Shown here one piece after another: positions 7,114 through 25,677 of a stretch of DNA of 32,355 nt; position 1 is the stretch's first letter, and each line of letters begins with the position of its first letter. The DNA lies in NCBI GenBank assembly GCA_029007315.1, contig JAQXHO010000105.1:1-32355 (forward strand), in the 5' to 3' direction. The position numbers and the translations under genes were made by a program. This stretch comes from Oscillospiraceae bacterium (GTDB taxonomy: Bacteria; Bacillota; Clostridia; Oscillospirales; Ruminococcaceae). The notes beneath the pieces were generated by a model that searched no databases, was not told the origin of the DNA, and saw nothing but the letters and a program-made list of their open reading frames with translations.

Positions 7114-7656
7114 TCAGAAATCGAAAATAGCCTCAATGATCCAGTCAATATGATCCGGGAAAAGCTCATTTGGATCAGCACTAAATCCCCAGGTAATATC
7201 CCACATTCTCCAGAACAGCAGTCCGACAAGCAGAAGTCCGATTATTGAACATACAAGACCGGCAACAGCAGTTCCCTTTCTGCGTTTGCCTGTAAGTCCC
7301 ACAATGCTGAGTATTAAACCTGTAAGAACTAAGGGAAGATCAAGAAGATTGAAAAGGAACAGGAGAATCGAAAGTATACCCATAAGCAAGCCAATAATGC
7401 CGGGTACGTTTGATTTCACATTCTGCTGAATCCCCGCATTCATGTAACCGAAATTATTCTGCGGAAAGCCGTTATTGTATGCAGCAGTATTTCCGTATGG
7501 CTGCTGGTATGGCTGCTGATACGGCTGAAATGCTGCTCCTGTGTTTACAGCAGGATTATTTTCAATCGTTTTCATCTTACCGCCGCAGGATGGACAGAAA
7601 GACGCAGTTTTGTCAAGGGTTTTTCCGCATGAATCACAAACAGATTTGACTGCCAT
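7114..7656 (-). CDS. zinc-ribbon DUF4190-like membrane protein (paralogue 1 of 3)
   Basis: This 180 aa protein starts with a zinc ribbon (CDSCGKTLDKTASFCPSCGGKMK, residues 7-28). A disordered Gln/Pro/Tyr/Asn-rich linker with PYQQPYQQPY follows. Two or three hydrophobic segments come next (GIIGLLMGILSILLFLFNLL, LVLTGLILSIVGLTGKRRKGTAVAGLVCSIIGLLLVGL), resembling DUF4190: a Gly-rich helix pair with a basic loop. The C terminus is short and acidic. It is likely a small membrane protein with its zinc head in the cytosol. The two genes upstream encode paralogues with the same layout. The role is unknown. An imperfect inverted repeat surrounds its stop codon, but there is no U tract, so I do not call a terminator. 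Confidence 0.8.
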   Translation of the reverse strand: MAVKSVCDSCGKTLDKTASFCPSCGGKMKTIENNPAVNTGAAFQPYQQPYQQPYGNTAAYNNGFPQNNFGYMNAGIQQNVKSNVPGIIGLLMGILSILLFLFNLLDLPLVLTGLILSIVGLTGKRRKGTAVAGLVCSIIGLLLVGLLFWRMWDITWGFSADPNELFPDHIDWIIEAIFDF

Positions 7657-7693
7657 AATATTCTACGTCCTTTTTATGTATTAAAACTGCCGT

Positions 7694-8200
7694 TTAGAAG
7701 TAGCGGCTGTAACGATTATAGGAATCGCAGGCTACGCAGCCAACTATACTCCAGTAAATTGAATAAATGACGCCAAGTGCAAGACCTACTATTGAACATA
7801 CAAGTCCTGCAATAGCCATACCTCTTGCAGTTGTGGACTTCATGCCCTTTACGCTGAGGATAAGACCTGTTATTCCCAGAGCTATGCTGAGATATGGTAC
7901 ACAGCACAGTACTACAGAAACAATGCCAATTACCATGCCGGCAATAGCTGCTGTTCTGTTCGGGTCACTGCCATTATTGTAATTAGTTGGCGGCGTATTG
8001 TATGCCGGTGACGAAAACGGTGAATTGTCCGGTAGAGGATTTACAGGAGTTACAGGCGGGATGCTGCCGAAACTCTGACTCTGGCTTCCGAAATCATCCT
8101 GAACATCCACAACGTTCATTTTGCCGCCGCAGATACCGCAGAAACCTTTTTCCCCGTCTACTTCGTTTCCGCACATTGTGCAAATTGATTTTTTTGACAT
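7694..8200 (-). CDS. zinc-ribbon DUF4190-like membrane protein (paralogue 2 of 3)
   Basis: The ORF track starts at 8230, but GGAGG lies seven bases before the ATG at 8200, which gives MSKKSICTMCGNEVDGEKGF and 168 aa. The order matches its neighbours: a zinc ribbon (CTMCG...CGICGGKM), a Ser/Pro/Asn-rich linker, then two hydrophobic segments with the DUF4190 pattern (AAIAGMVIGIVSVVLCC; LSIALGITGLILSVKG), a basic loop MKSTTARGMAIAGLVCSIVGLALG, and a short Cys/Tyr tail. Its promoter contains a perfect 27-bp palindrome over the -10 element, suggesting regulated expression. Function unknown. Confidence 0.8.
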   Translation of the reverse strand: MSKKSICTMCGNEVDGEKGFCGICGGKMNVVDVQDDFGSQSQSFGSIPPVTPVNPLPDNSPFSSPAYNTPPTNYNNGSDPNRTAAIAGMVIGIVSVVLCCVPYLSIALGITGLILSVKGMKSTTARGMAIAGLVCSIVGLALGVIYSIYWSIVGCVACDSYNRYSRYF

Positions 8201-8245
8201 AACATAACCTCCAAAATAAAAATATATCATGTTTAAATTTAAAAA

Positions 8246-8272
8246 TATAATAAATGCTGTGCATTTATTATA
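8246..8272. promoter_or_regulatory. perfect palindrome over the -10 region of zinc-ribbon paralogue 2
   Basis: TATAATAAATGC-TGT-GCATTTATTATA has perfect 12-bp arms around a 3-base centre. The outer end supplies the minus-strand TATAAT (8267-8272). It may be a repressor operator, or a 5' mRNA hairpin, since it extends over the predicted transcription start. Confidence 0.6.
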
Positions 8273-8295
8273 GCATAAAAAGCAGTTTTTGAAAA
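8267..8295 (-). promoter_or_regulatory. probable promoter of zinc-ribbon paralogue 2
   Basis: A minus-strand TATAAT (8267-8272) lies 17 bases from TTTTCA (8290-8295), a weak -35. The weak -35 and the overlapping palindrome are consistent with a regulated promoter. Confidence 0.5.
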
Positions 8296-8378
8296 GGCGA
8301 AATCAAAAATTATTTTTATTTTCTGCAAATTAACCAATAATCAGACAAAATATTACGTCAGAATGACGAAATTCCGCA

Positions 8379-8981
8379 TTACGCAATAGATAAAATATAT
8401 ATAAAGTAAGAGCCTGACGCTATTAACCCCACAACAGAACAAACAAGACCTGCAATGGCACAACCTTTGTATCTGACGCTTCTCAGTCCCACACAGGAAA
8501 GAATGAGTCCTGTAATGGCAATAAGAACGTCTAACCATACAAGGCAGAACAGAATAATTGATACAATTCCGATTACCATTCCTGCAATTGCCATGCCGTT
8601 TCCGGCATTTGTCTGATATGTACCATAGCCGTTCCACTGAGGAAAAGCGGACTGCTGATGCTGCGACGGATTACAGCTGCCAAAGCTTTGCTGTCCGAAA
8701 TCACCGGGATTTTGACCAAATGGCTGAGGCTGACCGAAAGGTTCATTCTGACCGAAAGACTGGTTATGACTGAAAGGCTCGTTCTGACCAAAAGGCTCGT
8801 TCTGACCGAAAGGCTCATTCTGACCGAAAGACTGGTTCTGACCGAAATTTAGCTGTTCAAACTGCTGCTGTGATGAAGCCGGCTGAGCATTGTCATTCAA
8901 AGGCATACCGCAGGCAGGACAGATGGGCATACCGCCCTCAACTGAAGCTCCGCAAACGGGACAAAACTTAATATTCTGCAT
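8379..8981 (-). CDS. zinc-ribbon membrane protein with FGQNEP hexapeptide repeats (paralogue 3 of 3)
   Basis: This 200 aa protein shares the architecture of its two neighbours. Residues 7-26 are a zinc ribbon (CPVCGASVEGGMPICPACGMPL). Residues 46-91 are tandem hexapeptides of the form FGQN(E/Q)(P/S), about seven and a half units. From about 128 there is a DUF4190-like pair of hydrophobic segments (MAIAGMVIGIVSIILFCLVW; VLIAITGLILSCVGLRSVRYKGCAIAGLVCSVVGLI). AGGAGA precedes the ATG. It sits just downstream of the rny terminator without a clear promoter of its own, so some readthrough from rny is possible. Function unknown; the repeat may act as a flexible, low-complexity spacer. Confidence 0.8.
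   Translation of the reverse strand: MQNIKFCPVCGASVEGGMPICPACGMPLNDNAQPASSQQQFEQLNFGQNQSFGQNEPFGQNEPFGQNEPFSHNQSFGQNEPFGQPQPFGQNPGDFGQQSFGSCNPSQHQQSAFPQWNGYGTYQTNAGNGMAIAGMVIGIVSIILFCLVWLDVLIAITGLILSCVGLRSVRYKGCAIAGLVCSVVGLIASGSYFIYILSIA
8709..8846 (-). repeat. 18-bp tandem repeat encoding FGQNEP units
   Basis: About 7.7 units with an 18-base period, reading CTGACCGAAAGGCTCATT and close variants on the plus strand. All lie in frame within paralogue 3. Unit order is FGQNQS, FGQNEP x3, FSHNQS, FGQNEP, FGQPQP, FGQN. Confidence 0.9.
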
Positions 8982-15269: not shown

Positions 15270-15449
15270 TTAAGGCAACACCGCACAAAGACTGTGCGCA
15301 AGATGCGCCGACATATTTTTTGTCAGATGAAACAAAAAACGCAGCTGCTACTTTGTGTAACAGCGAGGCTTTTTGTGAAATATTACGAAAAAGATGCAAG
15401 CAGATTGCGTGCAGAGCCGTCAGGCGTGCTTTGTGCGGTGTTGCCTTAA
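15270..15449. mobile_element. 180-bp MITE-like palindromic element with perfect 21-bp terminal inverted repeats
   Basis: TTAAGGCAACACCGCACAAAG (15270-15290) is repeated as its exact reverse complement at 15429-15449. The interior is also roughly self-complementary, so the whole element can fold into one long hairpin. Its apex is TAC-TTTGT-GTA (15349-15359). It has no coding capacity of its own. It sits 3 bases after the rlmH stop and 25 bases upstream of the spoVT promoter. The ends are TTAA, which is itself a palindrome, so a TTAA target duplication cannot be told from part of the inverted repeat. A related apex occurs in the element at 24264-24430. Confidence 0.8.
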
Positions 15450-19571: not shown

Positions 19572-19612
19572 GGTGATATACTGTGTATATCTGATATATA
19601 CAGTATATCACC
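19572..19612. promoter_or_regulatory. 41-bp palindromic operator of the GntR/YtrA regulator
   Basis: GGTGATATACTGT (19572-19584) and its exact reverse complement ACAGTATATCACC (19600-19612) flank a 15-base centre that is also nearly symmetric (GTATAT/ATATATAC). The right arm covers the -10 element of the operon promoter. Long AT-rich palindromes of this kind are typical YtrA-type operators. Confidence 0.8.
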
Positions 19613-24182: not shown

Positions 24183-24210
24183 TTGCATTTTTCAGAAAAA
24201 AGTTTATAAT
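24183..24210 (+). promoter_or_regulatory. sigma-A promoter of ackA
   Basis: TTGCAT (24183-24188) and TATAAT (24205-24210) are separated by 16 bases. Transcription would start near 24217, leaving a leader of about 260 bases. Confidence 0.68.
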
Positions 24211-24263
24211 AGATATAGACAGAACTTTTAAAAGGACATTTTCACCCGGAAAAGTTCTCATAA

Positions 24264-24430
24264 AGGGCACCTTTAAATACTCCGAATCCGTCAGATGCGG
24301 TGCAGATCTGCGACAGATTCATTTGCGGAAAAATGCAGGAATACTTTGTGTATTTCAAGTTTTTTCGCAAGTGAAGATGGCGTAAAGATGTGCCGCAGAT
24401 GGCGGGTGAGTGGGTTTTTAAAGGTGACCT
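24264..24430. repeat. 167-bp imperfect palindromic element in the ackA leader
   Basis: The ends AGGGCACCTTTAAA (24264-24277) and TTTAAAGGTGACCT (24417-24430) are inverted repeats with one mismatch. Further matched blocks lie inward on both arms (for example TCAGATGCGG with CCGCAGATGG, and CATTTGCGGAAAAA with TTTTTTCGCAAGTG). The arms meet at an apex TAC-TTTGT-GTA (24342-24352), exactly at the element's centre. In the transcript it would be one long hairpin ending about 50 bases before the ackA start. The 11-base apex is identical to that in the element at 15270-15449, and the flanks have similar A/T tracts and a shared GCAG. Confidence 0.72.
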
Positions 24431-24480
24431 AAGGGCAGTCTTAATATACTGCCGCAAGAAGATGAAAGGATTTGAAATGT

Positions 24481-25677
24481 ATGATTATTCTCGTTGTTAA
24501 TGCCGGCAGCTCTTCTCTGAAGTACCAGCTCATCAATATGGAGGATGAGTCTGTTATTGCAAAGGGCAACTGCGACCGTATAGGTATTGACGGCCATCTG
24601 AGCCACAAGACCTCTGACGGAAGAGCTATTGAGGAGGACTGTAATTTCCCGACCCATTCAGAAGCCTTCACACGTCTTGTTGAGGCTCTCACTACAGGCG
24701 ACGCTGCTGTTATTTCCAGCATGGACGAGATCTCCGCTGTAGGTCACCGTATCGTGCAGGGTGCTGAGGTCTTCACAAAGACTACTATGGTTACTCCCGA
24801 GGTTATTGACAAGATCGAAGAACTGAAGGAACTTGCTCCCGTACACAACCACGGCCATGCACTGGCTCTCTGGGCTTGTACAAAGGTTATGCCCAATGTT
24901 CCTCAGGTTGTTGTATTTGATACAGCATTCCACCAGACAATTCCCCAGAAGGCTTATATGTATGGTCTGCCCTATGAAGATTATGAGCAGTATCATGTAA
25001 GAAAATACGGCTTCCACGGCACATCCCACAGATTTGTAACTGCTGAGCTTGCAAAGCTCATGGGCAAGGATCTGAAGGATCTCAAAATCGTATCCTGCCA
25101 CCTGGGCAACGGTTCATCAATCACAGCTGTACAGAACGGTCAGTCTGTTGATACCACAATGGGCTTCACTCCGCTGGACGGCGTTCTTATGGGAACACGC
25201 TGCGGTGCAATTGACCCTTCTGCTGTAACATACGTTGCAAACAAGCACGGCTTCTCCACAGGAGATATGGATACATATATGAACAAGAAGTCCGGTCTGC
25301 TGGGCGTTTCCGGCAAGTCCTCCGACTGGCGTGACATTACTGCAGCATCTGAAGCAGGCGATAAGAGAGCGCTTCTCGCAAGAGATATGCTGGTTTACGA
25401 CATCAAGAAGGACATCGGCGCATATGCTGCTGCAATGAACGGTCTGGACGCTGTTATCTTCACAGGCGGTATCGGCGAAAACGCTCCCAACTGCCGTGAA
25501 ATGGTTTGCGCAAATATGGAATATCTGGGAATCAAGATCGACAATGAAGTAAATGACTTCAGGGGCGAACTGAGAAAGATCTCCACTCCGGATTCAAAGG
25601 TTGAGGTCTGGGTAATTCCTACAAACGAGGAACTGCTCATTGCAAGAGATACTCTGGCAATGGTAACAGGCAAGTAA
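24481..25677 (+). CDS. ackA: acetate kinase
   Basis: AckA interconverts acetyl phosphate plus ADP with acetate plus ATP, the ATP-yielding last step of acetate fermentation. The ORF track starts at a TTG (24472); the ATG at 24481 gives MIILVVNAGSSSLKYQLIN and 398 aa, the standard size, with AAAGGA ten bases upstream. Signatures are VNAGSSSLKY at the N terminus, KYGFHGTSHRFV, SCHLGNGSSITAVQNG, TGGIGENAP and the terminal VIPTNEELLIARDT. It has its own promoter, a long palindromic leader and a terminator, so it is monocistronic. No pta gene is next to it in this window. Confidence 0.97.
   Translation: MIILVVNAGSSSLKYQLINMEDESVIAKGNCDRIGIDGHLSHKTSDGRAIEEDCNFPTHSEAFTRLVEALTTGDAAVISSMDEISAVGHRIVQGAEVFTKTTMVTPEVIDKIEELKELAPVHNHGHALALWACTKVMPNVPQVVVFDTAFHQTIPQKAYMYGLPYEDYEQYHVRKYGFHGTSHRFVTAELAKLMGKDLKDLKIVSCHLGNGSSITAVQNGQSVDTTMGFTPLDGVLMGTRCGAIDPSAVTYVANKHGFSTGDMDTYMNKKSGLLGVSGKSSDWRDITAASEAGDKRALLARDMLVYDIKKDIGAYAAAMNGLDAVIFTGGIGENAPNCREMVCANMEYLGIKIDNEVNDFRGELRKISTPDSKVEVWVIPTNEELLIARDTLAMVTGK

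Follow-up and report, generated by a model that had tools for sequence, protein, structure and literature searches.

Background

Bacterial MITEs are generally portrayed as remnants of IS that are confined to particular lineages. Those that give rise to stable RNA hairpins, such as NEMIS/Correia, ERIC, RUP and YPAL, have TA-type ends and are found in one genus or a few related genera (review PMC2229807). The two long palindromes treated here, which lie in a window of 32,355 nucleotides (the whole stretch analysed) from an Oscillospiraceae bacterium, resemble these elements in being shorter than 200 bp, non-coding and mostly intergenic, and in possessing terminal inverted repeats, a target duplication and (here predicted) highly base-paired transcripts. 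In contrast to NEMIS/Correia-type elements, however, they show a 4-bp duplication, ends that vary by family, a covarying core that recurs across many bacterial families, and a marked strand asymmetry.

Two other systems invite comparison. With the IS5 family (NCBIfam NF033581, Pfam PF05598) the palindromes share GG... ends and a TTAA/CTAA-like 4-bp target, but they carry no gene, have only some 17 terminal bases in common with the IS, and enclose a core that none of the IS ends read contains. REP palindromes, which are 20-40 bp long, bear GTAG or CGTC tags and are associated with HUH transposases (PMC3733652), are likewise high-copy palindromes with a strand-specific tag; the present elements differ from the REP/RAYT system in their length of 157-190 bp, their tip TACTTTGTGTA, their IS-type ends and their 4-bp duplications. 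Reviews on MITEs and REPs were found in the openly licensed part of the literature, but none on this core. MITEs with RNA hairpins are already known (PMC2229807); what is unusual here is a modular, class-wide core and its strand-specific conservation.

Two miniature elements in the window

A sequence-only reading of the window had pointed to two palindromes with an identical apex, and TACTTTGTGTA is indeed present at both places; these are its two exact matches in the window (chance expectation 0.38 with one mismatch allowed). What that reading missed is that both palindromes are transposable elements with target-site duplications. The features of the first locus are:

15270-15273, no strand: target duplication, left copy, TTAA, flanking the MITE
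15274-15445, plus strand: complete MITE of family A, 172 bp, between rlmH-like and spoVT/abrB-like genes (covariance model 92.5 bits, copies, fold)
15349-15359, plus strand: conserved apex TACTTTGTGTA, exact match
15446-15449, no strand: target duplication, right copy, TTAA, flanking the MITE

and those of the second locus are:

24183-24210, plus strand: likely ackA promoter, TTGCAT-16 nt-TATAAT, upstream of the insertion (inferred; kept in congeners)
24261-24264, no strand: target duplication, left copy, TAAA, flanking the MITE
24265-24429, plus strand: complete MITE of family B, 165 bp, in the ackA leader (own-genome copies, 4-bp duplication, ends, empty site, RNA fold)
24283-24414, plus strand: structured core in the ackA leader (covariance model R1, 55.2 bits, E 3e-11; the match is partly by construction, as this copy is in the seed alignment)
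24338-24356, plus strand: apical stem GGAATAC, loop TTTGT, GTATTTC (fold and alignment)
24342-24352, plus strand: conserved apex TACTTTGTGTA, exact match
24430-24433, no strand: target duplication, right copy, TAAG, one mismatch, flanking the MITE
24465-24470, plus strand: likely ackA ribosome-binding site AAAGGA, outside the hairpin (sequence)

The family A element has the ends GGCAACACCGCACAAAG...CTTTGTGCGGTGTTGCC, folds with a z of -8.6 against shuffles, and carries TACTTTGTGTA on the strand antisense to both neighbouring genes; in comparison with congeners only its left flank can be matched. The family B element has the ends GGGCACCTTTAAA...TTTAAAGGTGACC and an RNA fold of -87.8 kcal/mol (z -11.7 against shuffles), in which an internal loop GCA (24335-24337) / AA (24357-24358) adjoins the apical stem; its TACTTTGTGTA strand is the sense strand of ackA.

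Both palindromes are almost certainly MITEs: they are short and non-coding, have terminal inverted repeats GG...CC, and are dispersed in multiple copies, and the ackA site is found empty in a relative. The flanking 4-mers of family A are identical in 23 of 47 copies (shuffled mean 6.2, maximum 13 in 1000 shuffles), a signal that is absent at 2, 3, 5 or 6 bp, and those of family B are identical in four of ten copies against 0.8 when shuffled. Prominent targets among 66 elements, preselected for a good end match and a duplication matching at three or more of four positions, are TTAA, TTTA, TAAA, TTAG and CTAA.

Other features of the window include a near-perfect palindrome with 20-bp arms at 19572-19612 (GGTGATATACTGTGTATATC/GATATATACAGTATATCACC), which is operator-like and located just upstream of genes for a GntR-like regulator and an ABC transporter. 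Three related zinc-ribbon membrane proteins are encoded side by side at 7114-8981, and 18-bp tandem repeats at 8710-8865 encode FGQNEP-like units in a zinc-ribbon protein.

One core in different families

Within the genome of the window the 11-mer TACTTTGTGTA has 30 occurrences and the reversed control two; of the 30, 28 fall inside one of the two MITE families. A covariance-model search with the core, the check that the sequence-only reading had proposed, detected 33 copies in the same genome. The 15274 element is represented there by about 28 near-complete copies plus fragments, and the ackA element by three complete copies plus short ones. The A-tract-GCAG-apex-T-tract core that the two palindromes had been said to share is borne out by BLAST, in which a 26-nt stretch of the ackA element matches tips of copies of the other family with 93% identity. 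The sequence-only reading had allowed either for a single family of folded elements or for a common structured core whose arms vary, and the latter describes the resemblance: the two MITE families differ in ends and arms but have one core, and many further families of this sort occur in other genera and taxonomic families. The shared apex was to be regarded as a coincidence if neither further copies nor paired covariation were seen, and both are evident here. That two unrelated palindromes came to share the 11-mer by chance has next to no probability, given its genomic copy number, its concentration in two families and its wider distribution: out of 295 genomes from the order 26 contain the 15-mer AATACTTTGTGTATT, the reversed control matching very rarely, and nearly all copies read are the tips of long hairpins with different arms.

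Matches of TACTTTGTGTA outside elements (L066, L088) and in coding sequence (L122, L125) were judged coincidental. Both families also have an alternative apex that is 19 nt longer, L003 belonging to one of them and L057 and L058 to the other. Alongside the short TACTTTGTGTA apex, several families and genera have longer forms that contain an additional ACCC...GGG mini-hairpin (also L114, L169 and L187).

Beyond the source genome, the core model retrieves between 0 and 97 copies per genome in congeners and matches at E 1e-6 or better in 68 of 391 sampled genomes of the class. Many of the class-level matches belong to families outside the order, where the loop varies as well. Carriers by name are Oscillospiraceae and other Clostridia assemblies, Anaerotruncus, and Subdoligranulum plasmid records. 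The ends of the elements vary among carriers (GGCAAYACCGCACAA, GGGCAYCTCTAAA, GGAAGCGCTGATTAA) and include the unrelated types ATACTAATATC (L115, L170, L172, L173), GGGCGTGCGGATTAGGG (L131-L135) and GGGCGTGTTCGCTTAGGG (L147-L149, L185). In L131-L135 as well as in L148, L149 and L185, a hairpin resembling an intrinsic terminator (A-tract, GC stem, T-tract) is situated between the left end and the core.

Three copies in the source genome are devoid of the apex (L230-L232; G000:C12:2933-3067, C128:15284-15409 and C66:9796-9926) and have the same deletion, between TTTTTGT repeats. Several copies of 46-63 bp consist of ends only, some of them with perfect 4-bp duplications. The short core-less copies with duplications may mean either that the core is dispensable or that it was deleted later. 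We considered them as proof of a dispensable core and dropped the argument, because the deletions are flanked by short direct repeats (TTTTTGT) and could recur after insertion.

A probable transposase partner

Family A is very likely mobilised in trans by IS5 transposases, since ends of the 15274 type flank IS5-family transposase genes in relatives. At L385 a lone family A end is followed by an open frame, a fragment, that matches IS5 transposases (NF033581, E 9e-18), and a search with this frame led to L403 and L407, so that IS5 genes bounded by A-like ends are now seen at three loci of related genomes. The IS5 at L407, in another genome of the order, measures 1134 bp and has a 325-aa frame between A-like ends. 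C-like ends GGATACGCTGATTAA likewise bound IS5 genes (L410, L411). No transposase with family B ends (GGGCACCTCTAAAAA), the type in the ackA leader, was found in the genomes searched, and the window's own assembly has no intact IS5 with family-A-like ends, only a remnant of an IS5 transposase gene (L401; G000:C9:1-400) which starts at the contig edge within the expected left end. Two sets of candidates were discarded: PF01609 and PF05598 matches in relatives are mostly transposases with other ends, and pairs of MITE ends 0.7-3.5 kb apart are neighbouring MITEs with host genes between them.

These observations bear on the view that the palindromes are ordinary MITEs, whose symmetry is kept only by transposon biology and recent shared descent and whose conserved tip is functionless in itself. 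In its favour are the clear terminal repeats, the 4-bp duplications, the random orientation to genes and the near-neutral change of the youngest family A copies (see below). However, IS and MITEs share only the outer 17 bases or so, and the IS ends lack the core, which is thus not simply a deleted IS; moreover, one core is carried across families with different arms and ends, and its deep covariation and strong strand asymmetry are not what this view would lead us to expect. We regard it as improbable.

Covariation and strand asymmetry

Covariation among 33 diverse cores scores 0.527, compared to 0.165 for shuffled alignments and at most 0.158 for slid partners (13 pairs scored; the MAFFT alignment misplaced the outer stems). 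An alignment of 16 complete elements of similar length with unrelated arms predicts 50 pairs along the whole element, and the compensatory changes in the arms that the sequence-only reading had asked about are seen as two-sided changes in 38 of them, with a covariation of 0.569 against 0.197 (shuffled) and at most 0.168 (slid). Internal loops recur at fixed positions, GCA/AA below the apical stem and AGGC/AACGAA below the second stem. Covariation beyond both kinds of control is what a structured RNA should display; in Rfam no family reached its gathering score, the only matches being chance-level ones to models of eukaryotic microRNAs and small RNAs.

The two strands are far from equivalent. 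When the left arm is aligned to the reverse complement of the right arm and pair-flanked mismatches are counted, a measure that uses no RNA energies, 39 distinct elements have 136 G.T against 21 A.C (p 8e-22) and 91 G.A against 7 T.C, the nominal p for G.T against A.C overstating independence, as the elements share ancestry. Every one of the 39 has its more stable fold on the TACTTTGTGTA strand, the mean advantage over the complement being 19.7 kcal/mol under RNA energies and 9.3 under DNA energies. Across the alignment of 16 elements, 28 pair columns contain G.T and 9 contain A.C, and the consensus energy is -48.0 for the TACTTTGTGTA strand versus -8.8. Within clusters the bias of G.T to A.C is weaker (64:39 for singletons, 39:19 for shared states), and in family A alone the excess is small, near neutral; this is consistent with selection on the lineages that spread and with decay of copies once they are inserted.

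Relative to the genes next to them the elements are oriented at random (17:16 in tandem arrangements, 14 convergent, 11 divergent). Because elements stand in both gene orientations, a process confined to one chromosomal strand fails to account for the asymmetry, which is explained by a single strand specific to the element. We are confident that the TACTTTGTGTA strand has been selected to fold as a single strand.

Retention of G.T and avoidance of A.C are also compatible with single-stranded DNA, either bound by a recombinase or transposase or extruded in replication, by analogy with recombination sites that fold in a strand-specific manner. Such a form might account for the strand-specific mismatches, the same strand is favoured with DNA energies in every element, and selection seems to act on the spreading lineage instead of the insertion site. 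On the other hand, 4-bp duplications and ends of IS5 (DDE-type) imply double-strand chemistry at the ends, gene orientation, a rough proxy for replication direction, is unbiased, and no partner enzyme was found in this analysis. Folded DNA is an unlikely alternative, and RNA is the form that we moderately favour.

The insertion in the ackA leader

The ackA leader of the congener G015 (L246) is an empty site that reads through without the element, and among the congener ackA leaders that could be read the present one is alone in carrying it. The likely promoter, TTGCA.-16-TATAAT, is conserved in the element-free leaders, and so is the start region (ATG at 24481 in the window). Given the empty site and the conserved promoter, the insertion arose recently compared with the genus and falls inside the likely transcript, in keeping with the earlier suggestion that this copy belongs to a transcribed leader. 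Short inverted repeats at 24222-24257 and 24434-24453 (GAACTTTT...AAAAGTTC; GGCAG...CTGCC) are both matched in insertion-free congeners, and the MITE was inserted between them.

An effect on the processing of ackA mRNA is plausible since the hairpin lies between the promoter and the ribosome-binding site. This position and the sense orientation are also what could commend the element as a cis-acting regulator, a hairpin recruited for stability or translation of the ackA mRNA. Against such a role stand its occurrence in a single readable congener leader, dozens of copies elsewhere in random orientation, and a ribosome-binding site outside the hairpin; a regulator model based on sense orientation was rejected on the random orientation. 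We consider recruitment very improbable and, as far as the data show, nothing indicates that the element was recruited specifically for ackA.

A proposed mobile structured core

Our data are best explained by MITEs that carry a deeply conserved core structured as a single strand and functioning, most likely, as RNA, an interpretation that we hold with good though incomplete confidence. Family A would very likely be moved in trans by an IS5-family transposase that acts on the terminal repeats and leaves the 4-bp duplication; family B resembles it in the type of duplication and in its end, but a transposase of its own was not found in the genomes searched. Different ends and outer arms would enclose the same core, predicted to form a long hairpin with regular internal loops and the tip TAC-TTTGT-GTA, and covariation together with the excess of G.T over A.C indicates that it is the fold of the TACTTTGTGTA strand that is selected. 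The likeliest form of this fold would be a transcript, for instance an ackA mRNA with a 165-nt hairpin between promoter and ribosome-binding site, where the hairpin is probably passive, e.g. as a substrate of a double-strand RNase. Since insertion orientation is random, the selected function serves the lineage of the element and not each host gene.

More tentatively, the core may be a so far undescribed, class-wide structural module, most likely RNA, that rides within a number of unrelated transposon ends in Clostridia and reaches dozens of copies in a genome. It would then be a mobile structured RNA, with a conserved tip and internal loops recognised by a host or element factor, and not a by-product of MITE formation.

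The elements account for hundreds of unannotated hairpins in gut Clostridia, and they call for caution, because leader folds that appear 'riboswitch-like', e.g. before ackA, can be transposon insertions. One structured core persists within different transposon ends across many families of Clostridia, with clear indications of selection for folding of one strand, and this makes a testable case for functional nucleic-acid structures that belong to some miniature elements themselves.
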